From NCBI GenBank assembly GCA_016871675.1, contig VHCN01000004.1, forward strand, positions 1 through 64,000: a stretch of 64,000 nucleotides of DNA. Reading direction: 5' to 3'. Source of the DNA: Verrucomicrobiota bacterium. Lineage in GTDB: Bacteria; Verrucomicrobiota; Verrucomicrobiia; Limisphaerales; VHCN01. The position numbers and the translations under genes are program-made. Position 1 is the stretch's first letter. Every line of letters starts with the position of its first letter. The notes under the pieces are model-generated. The model was not told where the DNA came from and ran no database searches. It saw only the letters and a program-made list of their open reading frames with translations. Shown here piece after piece: positions 6,554 through 36,940 of this stretch.

Positions 6554-8074
6554 TCAAGCTCCTCTCAAGGTGTCTCTCGCCGTCGCCACTGCCCGCAACT
6601 TTGCCTCCGCCACCTGCGCGCTGGCCACGGGGTTGTCGGCGAAGGTCGCGAAGCCGCAGTCGGGCGTGAACAGCACCCGCTCGCGGCCGAACAGGTCGAG
6701 CGCGCGCCTCATGTGCGCGGCGATGTGCGCGGCGGACTCCACCGAGTCGAGCTTCTGGTTCACCACGCCCACGCCGATGCGCCGGTCGGCGGGCAGTTCG
6801 CGAAGCACCTCCATCTCCCCCGCGCGCGGGGTGCAGAGTTCGAGGAACAGCGTGCCGACGTTCACCGACTTCAACAGGTCGAGCAGCGGACGATAATCAC
6901 CGGTCAACGCCGCGGCTTCGTCACGCGTCCAGTTGCCGCGGCACATGTGAACCGCGACCCGCTCGCGAGGCAGTCCGGCCACGACGGCGTTCAACAGGTC
7001 GCGCGCGAAGGCGAGTTCCTCGCCCGCCGCCTTCTTCTCGCTGAGCGCGCCGCACATGAAGCTGCGCTGCGTCTTCGCGCCGGTGAACACCACCTCGGTC
7101 AGCACCGGCTCGTCGAATTGCACCAGCGAAGCGCCCGCAGCAAGCAGACCGTGCAGTTCCTCGCGCAGCACGCGGACGATGTCCGTCGCAAGCGCCTCGC
7201 GCGTCGCGTAAGGCCGGTCGGTCAGGCAATCCAGCCACATCGTGCGCGTGAGCAGATACGGACCGGGCAGCGCGACCTTCACCGGCTTGCCGGTGAGCTT
7301 CCGGACGAATTCGAGTTCGTGCACGGCGAACGGCCGGCTCCGGCCGAGCGGCCCGAACACGACCGGATGCCGCACGGCCGCCGCGGGCACGTCGAGCGCG
7401 CGCAGCTCCTTCTCGAACTTCTCCCGGTCGTCCACCATCGCCGTGAGGTCGGTGAGCGGGATGAGCTGGCAGTTGTCGAGCAACCCGCCGACAAAGCTGC
7501 TGTAGCTGTCGCGCCGCTGCTCGCCATCGGTCACAACATCCACGCCGGCGCGAAGCTGCGCCTCGACCGCGAGCCGCACCGAGTCGTCCGCCGTGGCCTG
7601 GTAGTCGGCCTCGGCGATGCGGCCTTCGAGCCGCTCGTGAATCGCCTGCAACATCCAGCGCGGCCGGGGCCAACTGCCGATGCCCATGATCGAGAGCGGC
7701 GCAATCGGCGGCGCAGGCGCGGCGGGAGGGAGGGACGCGGGAATGACTGGCCGGACGCGAAGCGACTTTGTGGAGGGGGGTTGCTGGATGGTGGATGGCG
7801 CGGCGGCGCGTTCGGCGAGCGCGCCTTTGCAGACGAGGTAGCTGCGCTGCCTGCCGGACTTGGTCCACGAGACGAGTTCGTTGCCCGTGAGCCGGCACCA
7901 CGCGGGCAGGTCGCCCTCGACGGAGGTGTCGGTGGAGAGAATTTCCAGAAGCCCGCCGCGCGGCATCGGATCAATGTGGCGGCGGATGAGCAGCAGCAAG
8001 CCGCCGCCGCAATCCAAGTCGCCGCCGTCGAACGAGACATCGGGGCGCCGGGAGTGTGAGCCGGTCGCGTTCAA
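6554..8074 (-). CDS. TusA-like sulfur-carrier domain fused to MetE-like (cobalamin-independent) methyltransferase
   Basis: The start is taken as TTG 8074, whose TTGA overlaps the stop of the DsrE-like gene; GTG 8086 is the alternative. The product is about 506 residues. Residues 10-75 match TusA from end to end (DGGDLDCGGGL, then DLPAWCRLTGNELVS), keeping the active Cys but with CGGG in place of CPxP. After a proline linker, residues 125-500 are a MetE C-terminal-type barrel: VVTDGEQRRDSY, VAVHMCRGNW, LFLELCTPRAGEM and TPDCGFATFAD supply the His, Cys, Glu and Cys that bind zinc in MetE. The MetE N-terminal folate-binding half is missing, as in core-MetE and folate-independent methionine synthases. 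The fusion and the operon suggest methyl or sulfur transfer on a protein-bound thiol; this is inference. Confidence 0.8.
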   Translation of the reverse strand: MNATGSHSRRPDVSFDGGDLDCGGGLLLLIRRHIDPMPRGGLLEILSTDTSVEGDLPAWCRLTGNELVSWTKSGRQRSYLVCKGALAERAAAPSTIQQPPSTKSLRVRPVIPASLPPAAPAPPIAPLSIMGIGSWPRPRWMLQAIHERLEGRIAEADYQATADDSVRLAVEAQLRAGVDVVTDGEQRRDSYSSFVGGLLDNCQLIPLTDLTAMVDDREKFEKELRALDVPAAAVRHPVVFGPLGRSRPFAVHELEFVRKLTGKPVKVALPGPYLLTRTMWLDCLTDRPYATREALATDIVRVLREELHGLLAAGASLVQFDEPVLTEVVFTGAKTQRSFMCGALSEKKAAGEELAFARDLLNAVVAGLPRERVAVHMCRGNWTRDEAAALTGDYRPLLDLLKSVNVGTLFLELCTPRAGEMEVLRELPADRRIGVGVVNQKLDSVESAAHIAAHMRRALDLFGRERVLFTPDCGFATFADNPVASAQVAEAKLRAVATARDTLRGA

Positions 8075-8430
8075 TAGCTCACGCACGGACTCCCGCCCGC
8101 GAGGAATTCGACCAGCTTCGCCCCGCCGACGATGGCCGCGCCGGCGACGAGGTTGTTCTCGTCGAGCTTGCGCTTTTTGAAGCACGGCGAGCAGACGAAG
8201 ATCTTCCCGCCCGCGCTGGCGAAGTTCGCCATCAGGTCCTTCAGCGGCGCAAAGCCCTCCTCGTGCACGCCGTCGGCGTAGCCTTTCTGGCTGAGGCGCA
8301 CGCCCTCGATGCTCAGAAACACGAGCGTGTCCTGCCCGGAACCGAGCGCGGCGTTGGCGACGACGAAGGCGACGGTGGCGCGGTCACAGTTGTCCCTGGC
8401 GGCGGTGAGGGAGACGCAGAACTTAGACAT
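8071..8430 (-). CDS. DsrE-like sulfur-transfer protein
   Basis: A 119-residue single-domain protein of the DsrE/DsrF-like fold: RATVAFVVANAAL, DTLVFLSIEGVRLSQKGY, then FVCSPCFKKRKLDE, a Cys-x-x-Cys in the loop where DsrE proteins carry their sulfur-accepting Cys, and a final LVAGAAIVGGAKLVEFLA helix. DsrE proteins take and pass persulfide sulfur in the cytoplasm and act with TusA. Here it is placed between two genes with TusA-like domains; it overlaps the downstream start by 4 bp and follows the upstream gene by 46 bp, so co-transcription and joint action are likely. Confidence 0.85.
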   Translation of the reverse strand: MSKFCVSLTAARDNCDRATVAFVVANAALGSGQDTLVFLSIEGVRLSQKGYADGVHEEGFAPLKDLMANFASAGGKIFVCSPCFKKRKLDENNLVAGAAIVGGAKLVEFLAGGSPCVSY

Positions 8431-8476
8431 GGTGGAGTGGGTGAATGCTGGGTGGTTGACTGATGGCAGGAGAACG

Positions 8477-9097
8477 TCACGGCTTGCGGCGAATCCAATA
8501 GACCGGATGCTGCGAGCGCAAGAGCGGATTGCCCGTCAACCCGCACCATGCCGGCAGGTCGGCCGGCGCGCCGGGGTCCCGGGCGGTGAGTTTGAAGATG
8601 GTTCCCGGCGCGGTTGCTTGCAGGCGGAGGCGCAATTCGAGCACGAGATCGCCGCAGCCCATGTCGCCGGCGTCCCACTCGGCCGTGAAAGGGGGCGCGT
8701 CACCGGAGACCGCAGGCGCCATGCACTGCGCCTGCGGCCCCGATGATGCCGAGTCCCGCGCAACACCCGCGGGGCTCGTGTGGGAGGAACAGCCGGGAAG
8801 TTCGTCCAAGCCCGCGCCTTCCTCGCGGCAGGCCCATTCCCAAGCCTCGCGAAAGCAGTCGTGGCGCTGGATGTAATCGTAAATCTGCGCGCCCAGCGCC
8901 GCGGATTCGCCGGTGAGCGCGGAGCCCAGGCACGGCAGGCAGCGTGGAGCGTCCTTGAATCCCATCGCGATGCTCATGAGGGATTCGCGAAGGCCGATCC
9001 CGCGGGAGGCGGGACACCCGGGGCACACCGCCGCGCGCAGCGCGCCGAGGTCGCGGATGAGCGACTCGGCGGTGCGCGGTTCGGCGGTGGGGGTCAT
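8477..9097 (-). CDS. Cys-rich protein with C-terminal TusA-like domain
   Basis: The start is ATG 9097 (13 bp after the transglutaminase stop); the product is 206 residues. The N-terminal half has paired cysteines (AVCPGCPAS near residue 24; RCLPCLGSAL near residue 52) and further Cys (HDCFREAWEWAC), suggesting metal or disulfide chemistry; I do not recognise the domain. Residues 137-205 are TusA-like: WDAGDMGCGDLVLELR, then DLPAWCGLTGNPLL and YWIRRK. As in the MetE fusion the active Cys is followed by Gly, not by Pro-x-Pro. It leads the DsrE-like and TusA-MetE genes on the same strand. Likely role: sulfur carrier or acceptor in the same relay. Confidence 0.7.
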   Translation of the reverse strand: MTPTAEPRTAESLIRDLGALRAAVCPGCPASRGIGLRESLMSIAMGFKDAPRCLPCLGSALTGESAALGAQIYDYIQRHDCFREAWEWACREEGAGLDELPGCSSHTSPAGVARDSASSGPQAQCMAPAVSGDAPPFTAEWDAGDMGCGDLVLELRLRLQATAPGTIFKLTARDPGAPADLPAWCGLTGNPLLRSQHPVYWIRRKP

Positions 9098-9110: not shown

Positions 9111-10190
9111 CTACTTCTTCTCCCTGAACGTGAGCTTCCGCGTCCAGACTTCTTTTTCCGCGCCGGGCTTGCCATCCACCTCGACATAGGCCTTCGCCAG
9201 CGCGTTGACCGGACCGGCGTCCTGCTTGGGGGAAAGCGTGAGATCGCGGCCGCGGCTCCACGTCACGCGGCGCTCGTCGAGGTTGCCGAAGTAGTAATCA
9301 ATCTTCGACTTGTCGGCGTTGACCTTGCCGTCGCCGGTGGTGAGGCGCACGAGCTTGGCGTTCGCGTCGTTCACCGCGTAGCCGCCGGTGTAGAGGTCGG
9401 CCACGGCCACGTCATGCGGAACCCAGCCGACGCCCGGGGCGAAAAACTCCGGCCAGCAGTGATAGCTCTGGTCGGCGTCCTGCCCGTCGAGCTCGGCCTT
9501 GAAGAAGCTGCCGTAGATGATGCGTGTGGGAATCCCGCTGGCGCGGGCGAGCGACGCCCAGAGCGAGTGGAAGTCCGTGCAGTTCCCGGTCTTTGTCGTG
9601 AGGCAATAGTCGGTGCTGCCGACGGGCGACGCCTTCTTGGTGGCCGGGTCCTTCACCCAATACTCGATGTTGTCGAGCGTCCAGTCGTAGAGCTTGCGCG
9701 CGGCCAGCACGGGATTTTTCTCCGTGCCGACGATCTCAGCCGCGAGCTTCCTGATGCGGTCGTCGATGATCACGTTCGCGTTCGGCGCGAGCGACGCGGC
9801 GAACTTCGAGCGGTCGGCGGCGCTGATGGCCTTGGCCTTCTTCGCGTCCACGCCGCTGATTTGCTCGCGGCGCGTCACGCTGAAGGTCTCGACGATGGTG
9901 AACTCCTTGTTCAGGGGCGCGGCGACTTCGAGATAGACGGCCTTGTTGCCCTCGGAGTCGGTGGTGATGCGCGTGGGGAACGGGGCCTCGACCTTGAAGT
10001 CCGTGATTTGCTGGAGCGGGTCGTCCTGCGGCATGGTGAACCAGGCGCGGACCTTCTTCGCGCCGTCGGGAACCACGACCTTGAGCTCGTGGCGCGCCTC
10101 GAACGTCGCGGAACGCGGCGCGCTGGCGGCGAACACGGTGAACGACGCGGCGAGAACCGCGCCGATGCAGACGGACAGTGTGGTCTTCAT
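9111..10190 (-). CDS. Exported transglutaminase-like protein
   Basis: A 359-residue protein with a Sec signal peptide (residues 1-22, ending FAASA). Residues 30-110 are a beta-rich N-terminal domain. The transglutaminase core follows: ARKLYDWTLDNIEYW, Cys near residue 200 in TKTGNCTDFHSLWASLAR, His near 243 in QSYHCWPEFF, and Asp near 259 in VPHDVAVADLY, a complete Cys-His-Asp triad. Members of this bacterial family act as peptidases or cross-linkers in the periplasm or outside the cell. It sits 30 bp after the porin gene and 13 bp before the Cys-rich TusA gene, so it is probably part of the same transcript. The substrate is unknown. Confidence 0.85.
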   Translation of the reverse strand: MKTTLSVCIGAVLAASFTVFAASAPRSATFEARHELKVVVPDGAKKVRAWFTMPQDDPLQQITDFKVEAPFPTRITTDSEGNKAVYLEVAAPLNKEFTIVETFSVTRREQISGVDAKKAKAISAADRSKFAASLAPNANVIIDDRIRKLAAEIVGTEKNPVLAARKLYDWTLDNIEYWVKDPATKKASPVGSTDYCLTTKTGNCTDFHSLWASLARASGIPTRIIYGSFFKAELDGQDADQSYHCWPEFFAPGVGWVPHDVAVADLYTGGYAVNDANAKLVRLTTGDGKVNADKSKIDYYFGNLDERRVTWSRGRDLTLSPKQDAGPVNALAKAYVEVDGKPGAEKEVWTRKLTFREKK

Positions 10191-10220: not shown

Positions 10221-11597
10221 TTAGAACTTGTAGCTCACGAAAGCTTGGAAGCGGTTGTTCTGCCCCTTGCCCTGCGGGCCGGTGATGTCCTTGAAGTAAG
10301 TGGTCCAGTTCACGTAATCCAGGCCCAGTTCCACGGGGTCCAGATACAACCGCGCGGCGAGATACCAGATGCTGTTGAGCTCGGGCGACGACACCGGCAG
10401 GTCGCTGCTGCGCGGGTTGTCAAAGAGATAGCCCGAGTGAAACGAATACCACTTCGCCGGCTTCAGCGTGAGCTCCGCCCAGCCGCCGGTGGCGTGGATC
10501 TCGCGCCCCGTGGCCACGTTCACGCCCTGCAGGATGCCGCCGCGCACGTCGTCGAGATTCTTCCCCGTCCAGCCTTCGCCGCGCAGGGTCACGATGTCCT
10601 TGTAGAGCGGCGTGGAGAAGTCAAACCCCCAGCCCTCGCTGTTGAAGTTGTTGCGACCGCCGATGGCGATGTCCACCTTCTCGCGCGCCTGATGCGTCCA
10701 GAGCGCGAGCTCGATGTTCTGCTTCTCCCAGATCGGGAAACGGTAGCCGATGCGCCCCTGCACGGTGGGCAGGCCCGACGCCTCGCCGTCGCGGATGCCG
10801 TTGGCGTCCAGGTCCCGGTTGTCATCGGCGCCCGTCAACCCCGCCATGCCCTGCACAAACGCAGTCCCGCCCCACAACTTCGGCGTCCACTCCGCGCGGA
10901 ACTGCGGACGGCGGTCGCCCAGGTTGCCTGCGCCCCACATCACGAAGTCCGGGTTCACCGTGGGGAAATACTGCGAGATCAGGTCGCTCGTCTGCCCGGC
11001 GAGGAAGCTGGCGTTTTCCCACTTGAGCTGCCCGTAAGCGTGCCTCATGCGCAGGAACTCGCGCGACTCCGCGCCGCCGGCCACGACGTTGTAGAAATCA
11101 ATCTCCAGCTTGCCGCCCGTCTTCGCGCCCCACAGTGTTTCCACTTCGGGCCCGGAGAAATCCACACCGAGCCGGGTCAGGCGCGGGTGAATGTCGAAGT
11201 TCTCGTGGTTCGGGCCGGGCGCGAGGTTGGCCGCGCCGCCGAGGCCGTTCTCCGAGAGGATGAACGCGGGCACCAGCGAGCTGTTGATGCCGTTCCCGCC
11301 GGGGCGCGAATCGTCGTAAATCATGTCCGCGCGCAGGTAGCCGTAGAGCTTGAAGCGCGACTTGCCGGTGATGAACTCGCTCCACTTCATCGAGTCGTCC
11401 GGTTTGAGCTTGTCGTCCCCCGCGACCGGGGCGGCGGGCGTGACGGGTCTCTCGGCGAGCTTCTTCTCAAGCTCGGCCATGCGGGCCTTGAGCGCCTGCA
11501 ACTCGCGGAGCAGGTCGGCGTTGGACTGGGCCGGGGCAACGGTGGCACCGGCAAGGAATGCGGCGGCGACCGCCGCTGGGATGATGGGATGCTTCAT
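10221..11597 (-). CDS. DcaP-like outer-membrane porin
   Basis: A 458-residue protein with a signal peptide (PAAVAAAFLAGATVAPAQS) and a short coiled coil (LLRELQALKARMAELEKKLA, residues 30-49), then a beta-barrel opening FKLYGYLRADMIYDDSRP and closing in FQAFVSYKF with a terminal Phe recognised by the Bam machinery. The coiled coil followed by KLYGYLRADMIYD is the hallmark of DcaP-type trimeric porins, which take up dicarboxylic acids and similar anions. It leads the transglutaminase, TusA, DsrE and MetE genes at short spacing. Substrate specificity cannot be read from sequence. Confidence 0.85.
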   Translation of the reverse strand: MKHPIIPAAVAAAFLAGATVAPAQSNADLLRELQALKARMAELEKKLAERPVTPAAPVAGDDKLKPDDSMKWSEFITGKSRFKLYGYLRADMIYDDSRPGGNGINSSLVPAFILSENGLGGAANLAPGPNHENFDIHPRLTRLGVDFSGPEVETLWGAKTGGKLEIDFYNVVAGGAESREFLRMRHAYGQLKWENASFLAGQTSDLISQYFPTVNPDFVMWGAGNLGDRRPQFRAEWTPKLWGGTAFVQGMAGLTGADDNRDLDANGIRDGEASGLPTVQGRIGYRFPIWEKQNIELALWTHQAREKVDIAIGGRNNFNSEGWGFDFSTPLYKDIVTLRGEGWTGKNLDDVRGGILQGVNVATGREIHATGGWAELTLKPAKWYSFHSGYLFDNPRSSDLPVSSPELNSIWYLAARLYLDPVELGLDYVNWTTYFKDITGPQGKGQNNRFQAFVSYKF

Positions 11598-26923: not shown

Positions 26924-28354
26924 TCACGCCAGCAACTTCTTCACCACGTTCCCGTGCACGTCGGTAAGGCGGAAGTCGCGGCCGTTGTAGCGGAAGGTGA
27001 GCTTCTCGTGGTCGAAGCCAAGCAGGTGCAGGAGCGTCGCGTGCAGGTCGTGGATGTGGACTTTGTCCTCGACGGCTCTTCCGCCGAGGTCGTCGGTTTT
27101 GCCGACAATGGTGCCAGCCTTGACGCCTGCGCCTGCGAGCCAGACGGAGAAGGCGCGGTGGTTGTGGTTGCGGCCGGGATTGCCCTGCGCGTTGCCGTCG
27201 GCGGCGGGTGTGCGGCCGAACTCGCCGCCCCAGACGATGAGCGTGTCGTTGAGCATTCCATTCTGCGCCATCTCGGTCAGCATCGCGGCGATGGGCGCGT
27301 CGCACTCGCCGGCCTTTTGCCGGAGCGCGGCGGCGATGTTGCTGTGGTGATCCCAGCCGCCGTGCCAGACTTGCACGAAGCGCACGCCCTTTTGCAGGAG
27401 GCGGCGCGCGATGAGGAGCTGCCGGCCGAAGGGGTTGTTCACGCCGTAGGCGTCGCGCACGGCTTGCGGCTCCTTGCTGATGTCGAACGCGTCCTGCGCC
27501 TCCATCTGCATCTGAAACGCGAGCTCGTAGGATTGCAGGCGCGCCTCGAGCTGGCCGTCTTTTCGGAGTTTCTGCGAGTTGAGTTCGTTGAGCTGGTGCA
27601 GCAGGTCGAGCTGGCGCCGCTGCTCGGGGATGGATGTGAAGTTGTTCTGGATGTTCTCAATGAGCCGCTCGACGCGCAGTTCGCGGGTGTTGACGGGCGT
27701 GCCCTGGAAGACACCGGGGAGGAACGCCGATCGGAGATTCTGCGCGTCCACGTTGCCGGGCGAAAGCGCGATGTAGCCAGGCAGGCTCAGGTTCTCGCTG
27801 CCGAGTCCATACACGACCCACGAGCCCACGCTCGGCCGCACGAAGCGCAACGAGCCGGTGTTCATGAAGATCGTCGCCTGATCGTGCGCGGGAATGTCCG
27901 TCATCATCGAGCGGATGATGGCAAGCTTGTCGGCGTGCTCGCCAAGGCGCGGGAAGACTTCGCTGATTTCGAGCCCGCTCTTGCCCTTCTTCTCGAACTT
28001 GAACGGCGAGGCGAATCCCGTGCCGCGCGCGTCGTCGGGCAGCGACCTGCCGTCGAACTCGGCGAGCCCGGGCTTCGGGTCGAACGTGTCGATGTGCGAC
28101 GGCGCGCCTTGCGCGAAGAGGTGGAGGATGCGCTTCGCCTTGGCGGGGAAATGCGGCTGCCTGGGCGCGAGCGGCGAATAACTGTTCGCAGCGGCGCCAC
28201 GGGCATCGCCACCGAGCAGGCCCATCGCGGAGAGCCCGAGCAGGCTCGTCATGCCGAAGCCCATGCCGGCGCGCTCGAGGAAGTCGCGGCGCGGGAGCGG
28301 CAGGCCGGGCCGTGCGGGGGACGGGGCGCGCGGCGGGAACATTGCGGGGCGCAT
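26924..28354 (-). CDS. DUF1501 protein, Tat signal
   Basis: A 476-residue protein from ATG 28354 (ATG 28342 also possible). The leader PLPRRDFLERAGMGFGMTSL is a twin-arginine signal. The body is the sulfatase/alkaline-phosphatase-like DUF1501 fold: RILHLFAQGAPSHIDTFDP, GSWVVYGLGSEN, FVQVWHGGWDHHSNI, LIVWGGEFGRTP and NHNHRAFSVWLAGAG. DUF1501 genes normally sit beside a DUF1549/DUF1553 cytochrome gene; here there is none, its neighbours being an enolase-family enzyme and a zinc-ribbon protein. No activity is established for the family; it is thought to act in the periplasm on polymers in PVC bacteria. Confidence 0.92.
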   Translation of the reverse strand: MRPAMFPPRAPSPARPGLPLPRRDFLERAGMGFGMTSLLGLSAMGLLGGDARGAAANSYSPLAPRQPHFPAKAKRILHLFAQGAPSHIDTFDPKPGLAEFDGRSLPDDARGTGFASPFKFEKKGKSGLEISEVFPRLGEHADKLAIIRSMMTDIPAHDQATIFMNTGSLRFVRPSVGSWVVYGLGSENLSLPGYIALSPGNVDAQNLRSAFLPGVFQGTPVNTRELRVERLIENIQNNFTSIPEQRRQLDLLHQLNELNSQKLRKDGQLEARLQSYELAFQMQMEAQDAFDISKEPQAVRDAYGVNNPFGRQLLIARRLLQKGVRFVQVWHGGWDHHSNIAAALRQKAGECDAPIAAMLTEMAQNGMLNDTLIVWGGEFGRTPAADGNAQGNPGRNHNHRAFSVWLAGAGVKAGTIVGKTDDLGGRAVEDKVHIHDLHATLLHLLGFDHEKLTFRYNGRDFRLTDVHGNVVKKLLA

Positions 28355-33448: not shown

Positions 33449-36400
33449 CTAGTCGAGGAACGCCATCTCGTTCGCCAGCAGGAGGACCTGCGCGTATTTC
33501 TCCCAGGTGTTCAGCGGCTTCGCGGGGGCAGTGCTGCCGGCGCGGTTGAAGTCGGCGGAGGCGCGCCACTCGCTGGCGGCGGCGGGGTCGCCTGCCGCCA
33601 TGTTGCCGGACATCATCGCCGGCGCACCCACGACGCGTATGGTCGGCGCCCATGTGAACGTGTCGCCCTGCCAGTTGCCGCGCGAGCCGGCGTCCACGAT
33701 GAAGTCGATGGTGTCGCCTTTCTTGAGATCCACCTTCGCGACGGTGGTGGTGGCGGTTTTGGAGCGAACGTCGAGGTAGCGGCCGAGTTCGCCGCGACCC
33801 GAGGCTGCGATGTAGGCGTTGACGCCGTCGCCCTGCGCGTTGCGCATCAATTGATGGCCAACGGTGCCGTCGATTGCGACGCTCACATCGCGCGGGGCGG
33901 TCCAGCGGCGGATGACTGCGATCCCGCGCATCGTGCCGACGGTGCCGCCGGTGGCGTCGAGCTTGATCGGGCCGAGGGGCTTCGCGGTGTCCTTGGGGTC
34001 GCCCATCCACGCGCGCCCGTCGTAGACGGGGAGCGGGAAGAAGTTCACGACGCGGCGGTTGGCGGCGTCGTATTGGCCGTAGCCGTAACGCCAGACTTGC
34101 GCGCTGGCGGGGCCGGTGGACTTGATTCCTGATTGTTCCTCGAGGAAGCGGTGCCCGAGCTTGAGCTCGATGTCGGTGGGCGGCCGTTGGAACGCAATCT
34201 GGTAGATCTGCACGATGCGCTGGCGCTCATCCATGTCCTTCTTGAAGTCGGTGCGGTTGACGACTTCGCGTGCGAGTTGCGTGATGAAATCGCTGTTCAT
34301 CATGTAGAGCGCCTGCTGGGGAACGGTGGAGTTGAAACGCTGGCCGGTGGTGATGTCGGGGTTTGCGAAATCGAATGTGCGGAACACCGTCGCAAGATTG
34401 CCGCGGTCCACCTTCGCATAGATCGTGCGCCGATACGGATCGAAGGTGTGAAGGGGGTCGTTGCGATTGGCGATGTTGACCGGCGGGCCGCCCATCTCGT
34501 CCTTGAGCTTGCCGCTGATCAGGAGCAGCGAGTCGCGGAAGGCTTCGAAGTCAAGGCGACGACGATTCATTTTCCAGACAAGCAGGTTCGCCGGGTCCAC
34601 GGCCATGGCCTTGCCGCGGTCGTCGCTGCCCTGCTGGTAGACATTGGAGAGCATGATGAACTTGTGGAGCTTCTTGAGGGACCAGCCGTTCTCGATGAGG
34701 TAGGCGGACAGATAATCGAGGAGCTCGGGATGCGTGGGGTCTTCAGCGCGGACGCCAAAGTCGGTCGGGGTGCGCACGAGCGGCGCGCCGAAGTGGTTCA
34801 TCCAAACGCGATTCACGGCGACCCGGGCGGTGAGCGGGTTCTTCTCGCTGGCGATGGCCTTGGCGAGTTCGAAGCGGCCGCTGCCGTCCTTGAACGGCTT
34901 GCGGTCGGGGCCGGAAAGGACTTCGAGGAAGCGCCGCGGAACCTCCGGGCCGAGGTTGCGCTGGTCGCCCTTGATCATGATCTTCGCGTTGACCGGACTG
35001 GGGCGATCCATGAGCGTCATGGCGCGTTTCGGGGCACCGGGGTGTTGGACCTCGAGTTTCTGGCGCTCGTCGTTGAAGCGGTTTTCGCCGTTCCGGATGC
35101 GGTTGTTGTTCAGGTTGGCGACCTCAATGTATCCATAAGCGGCTGGAGCGTTGCCCGTCAAATAGGTCTTGCGCAGCGCCTCCATCGCAGCGTCGGGCAG
35201 CGCCTTGAGGTCGTCCACCTTTTCGCCGTCCTTCGCGGTGGCCTTCTTCTTTTCGTTGAGCGTGACGGCCGCAGACCACGCCTTTTCCGCGTCGGCGAAG
35301 AGTTTGGCGTAGCGCTCGGCGACGACCTGCATGTTGGCCGCGGGCGTGGAGAAGGCGCGGGCGACGAGCGCGTTGAACTTCTTGCTCGCGTCGTTGCTCG
35401 GGGAGAATTTTGCGGCGATGTCCTTGCCCTTGGCCGCGAATTCCTTGTCGTCGAGCTTGTGATACGAAGCCCACGGTCCCCAGATGGGGTCGGCCTCCTG
35501 GGTCTTGCCGCGGAGGTAGGTGAACCAACGGTTCATGACGAACTGATCGAGCTTATACATGCGCTCGAATTCCTGCTGGTCGGCGCGGTTGCCAATCCGC
35601 TTTTCGGGATCCTTCTCCATGATGTGCGCGAGTTGCATGTAGCGCGCGGTGTTCGCGCGCGCGTCGCCGAGGTGCTTGGCGAGGTTTGAATTGCGGTATC
35701 CCTCGAGGTCGGCGTCGATCTTGGCCATCTGGCGGAGGAAGTCCTTGTATTCCGGGCTCTCAGTGTCGGCCTCGACGACGGGCCGCTCGCCGGGTTCGGC
35801 GCAGCTTTGGAACACGCCGTAAAGTGAGTAGTAATCTGCCGTGGGGATGGGATCGAACTTGTGGTCGTGGCAGCGCGCGCAGTAAACGCTGAAGGACATC
35901 ATCCCGCGGGTGATGACGTCGATGCGGTCATCGATGGTCTCGATCGCATTCGCCTGACGGCTGAGCGTGAGCAGGCCCATCGCCGCAAGGTGTTTCTTCT
36001 CGGTCGTGGCCTTGTCGGCTGCGATCTGGTAGGTGAGGAAACGGTCGTAGGGGAGGTCGTCGTTGTGCGCATTCACCACCCAGTCGCGGTAGGTGTAGGC
36101 CTGGGTCATGACATTGCCCATGCGCTGGTTGTTGTTGTTTGCGCCGCGGGTGTCGGCGTAGCGGGCGACATCGAGCCAGTAACGGCCCCACCGTTCGCCG
36201 TAATGATTCGAGGCGAGCAGCTTGTCGATCACTTTGGACCATGCCTCCGGGGATTCGTCGTTGATAAACGCCTCGACTTCCTCGGGTGACGGCGGCAGGC
36301 CGATCAGGTCGAAATACGCGCGCCGGATCAGGGTCCACTTGTCTGCGGGAGGTGTGGGAAGGAGCCCTTTCCCTTCGAGCTTGGCGAGGACGAAGATGTC

Positions 36401-36940
36401 GATGTCATTTTGAATCCAAGACTTCAAGTGGCTCTTGGGCTTGGGAACCTCGGGCTTCTTGATAGGCCTGAAGGACCAGTGCTGCTTGGCCTTTTCCTTG
36501 TCGGCGTCGGACTTGAGGATGCCGACGGCCTTGCCGGTGCGCGGGTCGGGCGCCCCCATGCGGATCCAATTCTCGAAGTCGCTCACGATGTTGTCGGGGA
36601 GCTTTTCTTTCGGTGGCATTTGGAGGTTCGGATCCGTGTAGGTGACGGCCTTGTAGAGGAGGCTCTTCTGAGGGTTGCCGGGCACGACCGCGGCGCCGGA
36701 GGAACCGCCCTTGAGCAGTCCCGCCTTGGAGTCGAGCTGCAGGCCGCCCTTGATCTTGGCGTCCTTGTCGCCGCTGTGGCACTTGTGGCAGTGCTCGATG
36801 AGGGCGGGGCGAATCTTGGTCTCGAAGAACTCGAGTTCCTCGGGTGTGAGGGGTCGGTCCTGTGCGGGCGCGGTGCCGGCGGCGAGCGCGAGCGCGAGCG
36901 CTGCAGCGGGATGCAGAAGCAGTCGGGTCGTGGTCTTCAT
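33449..36940 (-). CDS. DUF1549/DUF1553 planctomycete-type cytochrome c (PSD1) protein
   Basis: An 1163-residue exported protein from ATG 36940 with a signal peptide (LLLHPAAALALALAAGTAPA). A planctomycete cytochrome C domain binds haem at IEHCHKCHSGD (near residue 50). DUF1549 follows (residues 150-390) with NHYGERWGRYWLDVARYADT and the YCARCHDHKFDPIPT motif (near 353), a second CxxCH. DUF1553 is near 690-870 (ARVAVNRVWMNHFGAPLVRT). A C-terminal beta-sandwich (residues 950-1110) shows GTMRGIAVIRRWTAPRDVSV. The family is an abundant PVC exoprotein linked to polymer breakdown, always paired with DUF1501, here the upstream gene. Electron transfer to or from a substrate is inferred. Confidence 0.95.
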   Translation of the reverse strand: MKTTTRLLLHPAAALALALAAGTAPAQDRPLTPEELEFFETKIRPALIEHCHKCHSGDKDAKIKGGLQLDSKAGLLKGGSSGAAVVPGNPQKSLLYKAVTYTDPNLQMPPKEKLPDNIVSDFENWIRMGAPDPRTGKAVGILKSDADKEKAKQHWSFRPIKKPEVPKPKSHLKSWIQNDIDIFVLAKLEGKGLLPTPPADKWTLIRRAYFDLIGLPPSPEEVEAFINDESPEAWSKVIDKLLASNHYGERWGRYWLDVARYADTRGANNNNQRMGNVMTQAYTYRDWVVNAHNDDLPYDRFLTYQIAADKATTEKKHLAAMGLLTLSRQANAIETIDDRIDVITRGMMSFSVYCARCHDHKFDPIPTADYYSLYGVFQSCAEPGERPVVEADTESPEYKDFLRQMAKIDADLEGYRNSNLAKHLGDARANTARYMQLAHIMEKDPEKRIGNRADQQEFERMYKLDQFVMNRWFTYLRGKTQEADPIWGPWASYHKLDDKEFAAKGKDIAAKFSPSNDASKKFNALVARAFSTPAANMQVVAERYAKLFADAEKAWSAAVTLNEKKKATAKDGEKVDDLKALPDAAMEALRKTYLTGNAPAAYGYIEVANLNNNRIRNGENRFNDERQKLEVQHPGAPKRAMTLMDRPSPVNAKIMIKGDQRNLGPEVPRRFLEVLSGPDRKPFKDGSGRFELAKAIASEKNPLTARVAVNRVWMNHFGAPLVRTPTDFGVRAEDPTHPELLDYLSAYLIENGWSLKKLHKFIMLSNVYQQGSDDRGKAMAVDPANLLVWKMNRRRLDFEAFRDSLLLISGKLKDEMGGPPVNIANRNDPLHTFDPYRRTIYAKVDRGNLATVFRTFDFANPDITTGQRFNSTVPQQALYMMNSDFITQLAREVVNRTDFKKDMDERQRIVQIYQIAFQRPPTDIELKLGHRFLEEQSGIKSTGPASAQVWRYGYGQYDAANRRVVNFFPLPVYDGRAWMGDPKDTAKPLGPIKLDATGGTVGTMRGIAVIRRWTAPRDVSVAIDGTVGHQLMRNAQGDGVNAYIAASGRGELGRYLDVRSKTATTTVAKVDLKKGDTIDFIVDAGSRGNWQGDTFTWAPTIRVVGAPAMMSGNMAAGDPAAASEWRASADFNRAGSTAPAKPLNTWEKYAQVLLLANEMAFLD

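Follow-up and report, generated by a model that had tools for sequence, protein, structure and literature searches.

A TusA–MetE fusion gene and its operon in about nine bacterial phyla: a probable role in selenium metabolism

What does a TusA-like carrier domain do when it is joined in one polypeptide to the catalytic half of the methionine synthase MetE? The question is raised by three minus-strand genes at positions 6554-9097 of a 64,000-nucleotide stretch of contig VHCN01000004.1 from a Verrucomicrobiota bacterium (the window), which encode a Cys-rich protein with a TusA-like end, a DsrE-like protein and the TusA–MetE fusion (Table 1). The first-pass annotation had read these genes as a sulfur relay operon. 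Their place and strand were as it described, and Pfam matches to Meth_synt_2, TusA and DsrE agree with its domain assignments. The extent of the operon was another matter: the three-gene core stands, but transglutaminase-like and porin-like genes upstream also belong to it, an order that is repeated in Planctomycetota loci L075 and L125, where the porin-like gene again precedes the transglutaminase gene (40% and 49% identity to that of the window). For the fusion, a TTG start at 8074 was favoured over GTG at 8185; locus L009 and most relatives start at the same place. No selenocysteine (Sec) read-through genes were found in the window, as TGA extensions enter neighbouring genes. Elsewhere the window carries a DUF1501 gene (26924-28342) and a PSCyt1/PSCyt2/PSD1 gene (33449-36940), of the planctomycete-cytochrome kind.

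Table 1. Features of the operon in the window (VHCN01000004.1) and of accessory genes at related loci (L numbers).
Feature	Position	Strand	Remarks
TusA–MetE fusion gene	6554..8074	-	506 aa; TTG start overlaps the DsrE stop codon
TusA-like domain of fusion, residues 12-84	7823..8041	-	aligned to solved TusA, E=1e-4
Carrier Cys22 codon of fusion TusA domain	8009-8011	-	motif CGGG
Core MetE catalytic domain of fusion, residues 126-500	6575..7699	-	Pfam Meth_synt_2 E=3e-31
DsrE-like gene, 119 aa, VCSPC motif (Cys80, Cys83)	8071..8430	-	Pfam DsrE E=9e-14
206-aa protein: Cys-rich N-terminal part and TusA-like C-terminus	8477..9097	-	TusA E=2e-5
Extracytoplasmic transglutaminase-like gene, same operon	9111..10190	-	Transglut_core E=1e-23
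Porin-like gene, probable first gene of operon	10221..11597	-	without Pfam match
HtxB-like binding protein (example)	L048 6393-7280		and 15 further loci; inside operon
fam8/fam7 loci	L081 6865-8913, L101, L111, L120, L121, L124, L126 9862-11946

The N-terminal domain of the fusion was recognised as TusA-like by both phmmer and Pfam, with a Pfam TusA match (E=1e-5) that falls just under the cut-off in hmmscan and just over it in the genome search, and with an alignment to the solved Escherichia coli TusA (3lvj/1dcj) that places Cys22 over the TusA Cys19. Its carrier motif is CGGG or CGNG across the family and not the CPxP of TusA. The folate-binding N-terminal domain of MetE is absent, so that TusA alone precedes the catalytic half. 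In this half the zinc ligands, which the first-pass annotation had noted as retained (H376, C378, E412 and C473), and the homocysteine-binding residues S134, E185 and D321 are all kept when roles are assigned by comparison with the E. coli MetE residues given in PMC7857596, and conservation of both sets exceeds 98.5% across 81 sequences and is complete in a 47-row alignment. AlphaFold2 modelled the fusion as two folded domains (pLDDT 84.7, pTM 0.87) and the best PDB match of the model by Foldseek was the MesD-type methionine synthase 3rpd (E=3e-21).

A single scan across genome contigs recovered 80 fusion loci with 63-76% identity from about nine phyla, among them Pseudomonadota, Chloroflexota, Planctomycetota, Verrucomicrobiota, Acidobacteriota, Rokubacteria, Latescibacterota, Binatota and Myxococcota, and nearly all have the same three-gene core, with small TusA and DsrE genes directly upstream of the fusion or a few genes away. 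Misassembly, which the first-pass annotation had named as the way in which the two domains might have come together, is excluded, as are a frame error and a chance open reading frame, because the 80 relatives share the TusA–MetE frame and the structural prediction gives two domains. Two relatives (L060 and L114) carry a single in-frame TAG and one is clipped by a contig end; these TAG codons are the sole in-frame stops of the fusions, and no Sec codons were found in the operon proteins. A draw across Verrucomicrobiota, the phylum of the window, returned the fusion in one of 387 genomes, the window's own. An apparent fusion at L014 (genome G018) was discarded, since what lies there is a core MetE in an open frame that follows other genes. 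At L040 (4727-5134; G051) what is left of the fusion, in mid-contig, is its final ~124 residues, and this resembles a decaying copy.

Conservation within the family is higher in the carrier half, with a mean pairwise identity of 77% for TusA versus 70% for MetE, and TusA is the higher in 88% of pairs. The partner proteins also keep their cysteines: in the DsrE-like protein Cys80 is present in 74 of 74 relatives and Cys83 in 73 of 74, and the carrier Cys148 and Cys185 of the Cys-rich/TusA-like protein are both present in all 73. Such near-universal cysteines fit a functioning cysteine relay. The small TusA has a CGD or CGE motif and not CPxP, and outside the window a short TusA that lacks the Cys-rich part is the commoner form of the first gene. 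A second small DsrE-like gene (fam5) occurs near the operon at L066 (10517-10876) and 15 further loci; in many betaproteobacteria it lies directly 3' of the fusion.

The element that such a relay might carry was approached through genome content. selD was over the cut-off in 44 of 48 distinct fusion genomes and selA in 38, with one or the other in 47 (G040 and G059 are one genome and were counted once); neither was found in G058. For the 30 non-betaproteobacterial fusion genomes the counts are 27 for selD and 29 for selD or selA. Background selD frequencies were 33/387 in Verrucomicrobiota and 210/245 in Burkholderiaceae, and the statistics are limited by kinship and by base rates that cover these two groups. 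As selD is near-universal in Burkholderiaceae, its co-occurrence with the fusion there is uninformative and was dropped as evidence; the 18 betaproteobacteria among the 48 genomes accordingly carry no weight. A within-phylum test gave selD in two of three fusion genomes versus background (Fisher p=0.02), a value that rests on three genomes because the phylum draw returned the window's fusion alone.

Gene position points the same way. In three lineages a sel gene (selA, selB or selD) adjoins the fusion. Plasmid pFER4 of Paracoccus ferrooxidans carries, in this order, TusA, DsrE, fam7, fam8, the fusion, selA and trxB, with selB ~11 kb upstream; in Bradyrhizobiaceae SJ505 (L120) selD directly follows the fusion and selA and selB lie within 10 kb; and in the Verrucomicrobia genome G040 selB is next to the fusion, with selA and an FAD-fused SelD beside it. 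At three Dehalococcoidia loci, which are related, the distance from selB to the fusion is 5-6 kb. Overall, a sel gene is within reach at five of the 80 loci and on the Paracoccus plasmid, and most loci have none. On another contig (C44; L139, 7074-9675) of the window's genome (G000), the genes for tRNA-Sec, for SelA and for a SelD whose frame contains a TGA are clustered, and formate-dehydrogenase-like genes lie within a few kb of them; the organism is a selenium user that makes selenoproteins. Taking genome content and gene position together, we consider it likely, with good confidence, that the operon works in selenium metabolism.

These data bear directly on the sulfur relay that was first suggested for the locus, in which the carrier either supplies the sulfide from which homocysteine is made on the spot or bears a methylated thiol that donates its methyl group. 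TusA and DsrE proteins are usually sulfur carriers, and in Paracoccus a cysteine desulfurase gene lies beside the operon. The tight link to selD and selA and the positions of the sel genes speak against this reading, which we regard as very unlikely, and sulfide delivery is further opposed by the retention of the residues that bind ready-made homocysteine and by the finding of no recognisable homocysteine-forming gene among the neighbours examined. Of the first-pass annotation, the proposal that the methyl donor is bound to a carrier survives; the element, because of the co-occurrence with selD and selA and the sel genes beside the fusion, is probably selenium and not sulfur.

Another possibility is that the fusion is an additional methionine synthase that uses a corrinoid protein or a common methyl donor, with TusA serving in docking, redox sensing or regulation and with selenium linked indirectly, for example through lifestyle. 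Every residue for methionine synthesis is kept, and core MetE enzymes that lack a fusion partner are genuine methionine synthases (PMC7857596; PMC7005905). In two Planctomycetota metagenome-assembled genomes (MAGs; G066 and G078) and a Gallionellaceae MAG (G080) the fusion is the sole methionine-synthase-type protein found, neither MetH nor a full MetE being detected in them; if the three MAGs are complete in this respect, the methionine of these organisms could not come from a trace donor and a more abundant methyl donor would be required. MetH, however, was over the cut-off in 33 of the 48 fusion genomes, so that an extra methionine synthase would usually be unneeded. It is also hard to see on this account why the cysteines of TusA and of the partner TusA and DsrE are kept more tightly than the MetE half overall, and the sel genes adjoining the fusion in three lineages are left unexplained. 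We therefore hold this role to be unlikely. In the window's genome a metH start was seen where the window's contig ends (G000:C4:88861-88983) and the remainder was not found; MetH is probably present, its gene having been truncated in the assembly. The Chloroflexota MAGs G061 and G062, which underlie L049 and L051, have ~20 Meth_synt_2 matches each in genomes of 2.2-2.9 Mb, a striking expansion of core MetE-like proteins.

The best explanation for the data, which we put forward tentatively, is that the genes form a selenium acquisition and trafficking operon in which the fusion demethylates carrier-bound methyl-selenium to give methionine. That the fusion acts on methyl-selenium is itself plausible and not yet probable, the donor being deduced from the parts of the system. 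Selenium would be taken up in methylated or oxyanion form, by an HtxB-like importer in certain lineages and in the window perhaps by way of the porin and the transglutaminase, and would be carried on the cysteines of DsrE and TusA, with loading on TusA-type cysteines as a mixed selenosulfide, either TusA-S-Se-CH3 or TusA-S-SeH. Methylseleninate reacts with thiols to R-S-Se-CH3, and a selenopersulfide is a reasonable leaving group. The MetE half would bind homocysteine as a zinc thiolate and accept the methyl group from the carrier-bound methyl-selenium, so that the products would be methionine and TusA-S-Se-, the latter a selenium source for SelD. Such a system would parallel the corrinoid methyl-selenide systems without a need for B12. 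The scheme in its entirety, a B12-free, carrier-based methyl-selenium:homocysteine methyltransferase with its own DsrE/TusA relay and, in many proteobacteria, a dedicated HtxB-like importer, is more speculative and we offer it as one possible arrangement.

The putative importer is a PhnCDE-type ABC transporter that is present in the operon at 18 loci, usually between dsrE and the fusion, mostly in Burkholderiales but also in Nitrospirillum and one Rokubacterium. Its binding protein could be read at 16 of the 18 loci and is closest to HtxB (E=6e-78). All 16, which come from relatives, as the window itself has no HtxB-like gene, show the HtxB-like signature of N128S, F158H and M176F/Y with W52 kept, and R178 and D206 are kept as well. 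Selenite is similar to phosphite in shape, and selenite or methylseleninate are candidate ligands of these proteins; the transporter may possibly carry a selenium oxyanion. The same signature marks an 'HtxB-like' subfamily that was modelled without a measured ligand (PMC6629693). In that work the HtxB-like pocket is larger and gains a His where the third oxygen would sit. Such a pocket suits an anion with three oxygens and would be in keeping with a selenium relay that involves no demethylation: a selenite-like species would be imported, reduced and passed to SelD on the TusA and DsrE cysteines, and the MetE half would do something secondary, for instance sense methionine status or unload sulfur or selenium onto homocysteine. 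This proposal accounts for the selenium association equally well, but the kept zinc and homocysteine residues are hard to explain by it unless methyl transfer to homocysteine persists, and we think it improbable that the relay works in this way.

Other accessory genes differ between lineages. A transglutaminase-like gene replaces the transporter in the window, in three Planctomycetota loci, a Myxococcota-type locus, two Rokubacteria and one Paraburkholderia locus, and transglutaminase homologues adjoin the operon in L056, L062, L065, L069, L075, L084, L094 and L125; between the transglutaminase of Paracoccus and that of the window, identity is only 27%. A search of the literature on DsrE with transglutaminase, and on Rv1681, returned nothing relevant. 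In Rhizobiales, Alcaligenaceae, some Oxalobacteraceae and Paracoccus the operon has the membrane protein fam7, which bears the motif C(L)APxLSVVGLG and has no Pfam match, and with it travels fam8, an extracytoplasmic protein of ~500 aa with a C-terminal membrane anchor, which has neither a Pfam nor an NCBIfam match and an AlphaFold2 model (pLDDT 47) that allows no interpretation. The selenium model gives no explained place to the transglutaminase, the porin, fam7 or fam8.

If the demethylase and transporter roles hold, the operon would represent a complete and previously undescribed pathway of selenium acquisition across about nine phyla. According to reviews of 2022 and 2026 (PMC9312934; PMC13188914), prokaryotes have no known high-affinity system for selenium transport, and in the literature examined we found no gene assigned to the freeing of selenium from methylated forms in aerobic bacteria; the operon provides named and testable genes for both transport and release. 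It also places the orphan HtxB-like binding proteins in a context and extends the methionine synthases by a branch fused to a carrier, and, if the proposal is true, some genes annotated as '5-methyltetrahydropteroyltriglutamate--homocysteine methyltransferase' or 'sulfurtransferase TusA' are misassigned. As the first-pass annotation had supposed, no described pathway with this architecture was found, in a literature search conducted mostly without subscription papers and preprints. Selenium-linked TusA/DsrE proteins (YedF) and corrinoid methyl-selenide systems are already known.

Among known proteins, the core methionine synthases MesA-MesD (PMC7857596; PMC7005905) likewise consist of the catalytic half alone with the zinc and homocysteine residues kept, whereas the fusion has an N-terminal TusA domain and a selenium-linked operon and is ~25-30% identical to them; no gene for MesX (DUF1852), the partner of MesD, was recognised in the fusion neighbourhoods examined. 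YedF, a selenium-linked TusA(SirA)-DsrE protein (PMC5322559; PMC2432076), resembles the present system in bringing TusA and DsrE modules together in a selenium-linked setting, but it is one fused protein with CPxP and CGxC motifs, and here the modules are separate genes with CGxG and VCxPC motifs and the MetE fusion is added. Among HtxB and the HtxB-like phosphite/hypophosphite binding proteins (PMC5700983; PMC6629693), the binding proteins in the operons of relatives share the HtxB-like signature, and they differ in sitting in a selenium-linked operon. The closest parallels in proposed function are SdmABC of Methanococcus, which demethylates methyl selenides, in an organism group where Methanococcus maripaludis tusA/D mRNAs rise ~4.5 log2 on selenium depletion (PMC11097638), and the type I corrinoid (mlp) gene clusters, which were proposed to recycle methyl selenides into methionine and of which 87% of the host species encode the Sec machinery (PMC10418091). 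As in those systems, the operon described here is tied to selenium users and to sel genes (47/48 genomes, with adjacency in three lineages), has a methyltransferase of the UroD/MetE superfamily and is proposed to free selenium from methyl-selenium with recycling of the methyl group. No corrinoid or MtaA-like genes were recognised in the window operon or at the loci examined, and where SdmABC and type I mlp pair a corrinoid protein with an MtaA-like enzyme in mostly anoxic hosts, the present system has a TusA-fused core MetE and many of its hosts are aerobic.
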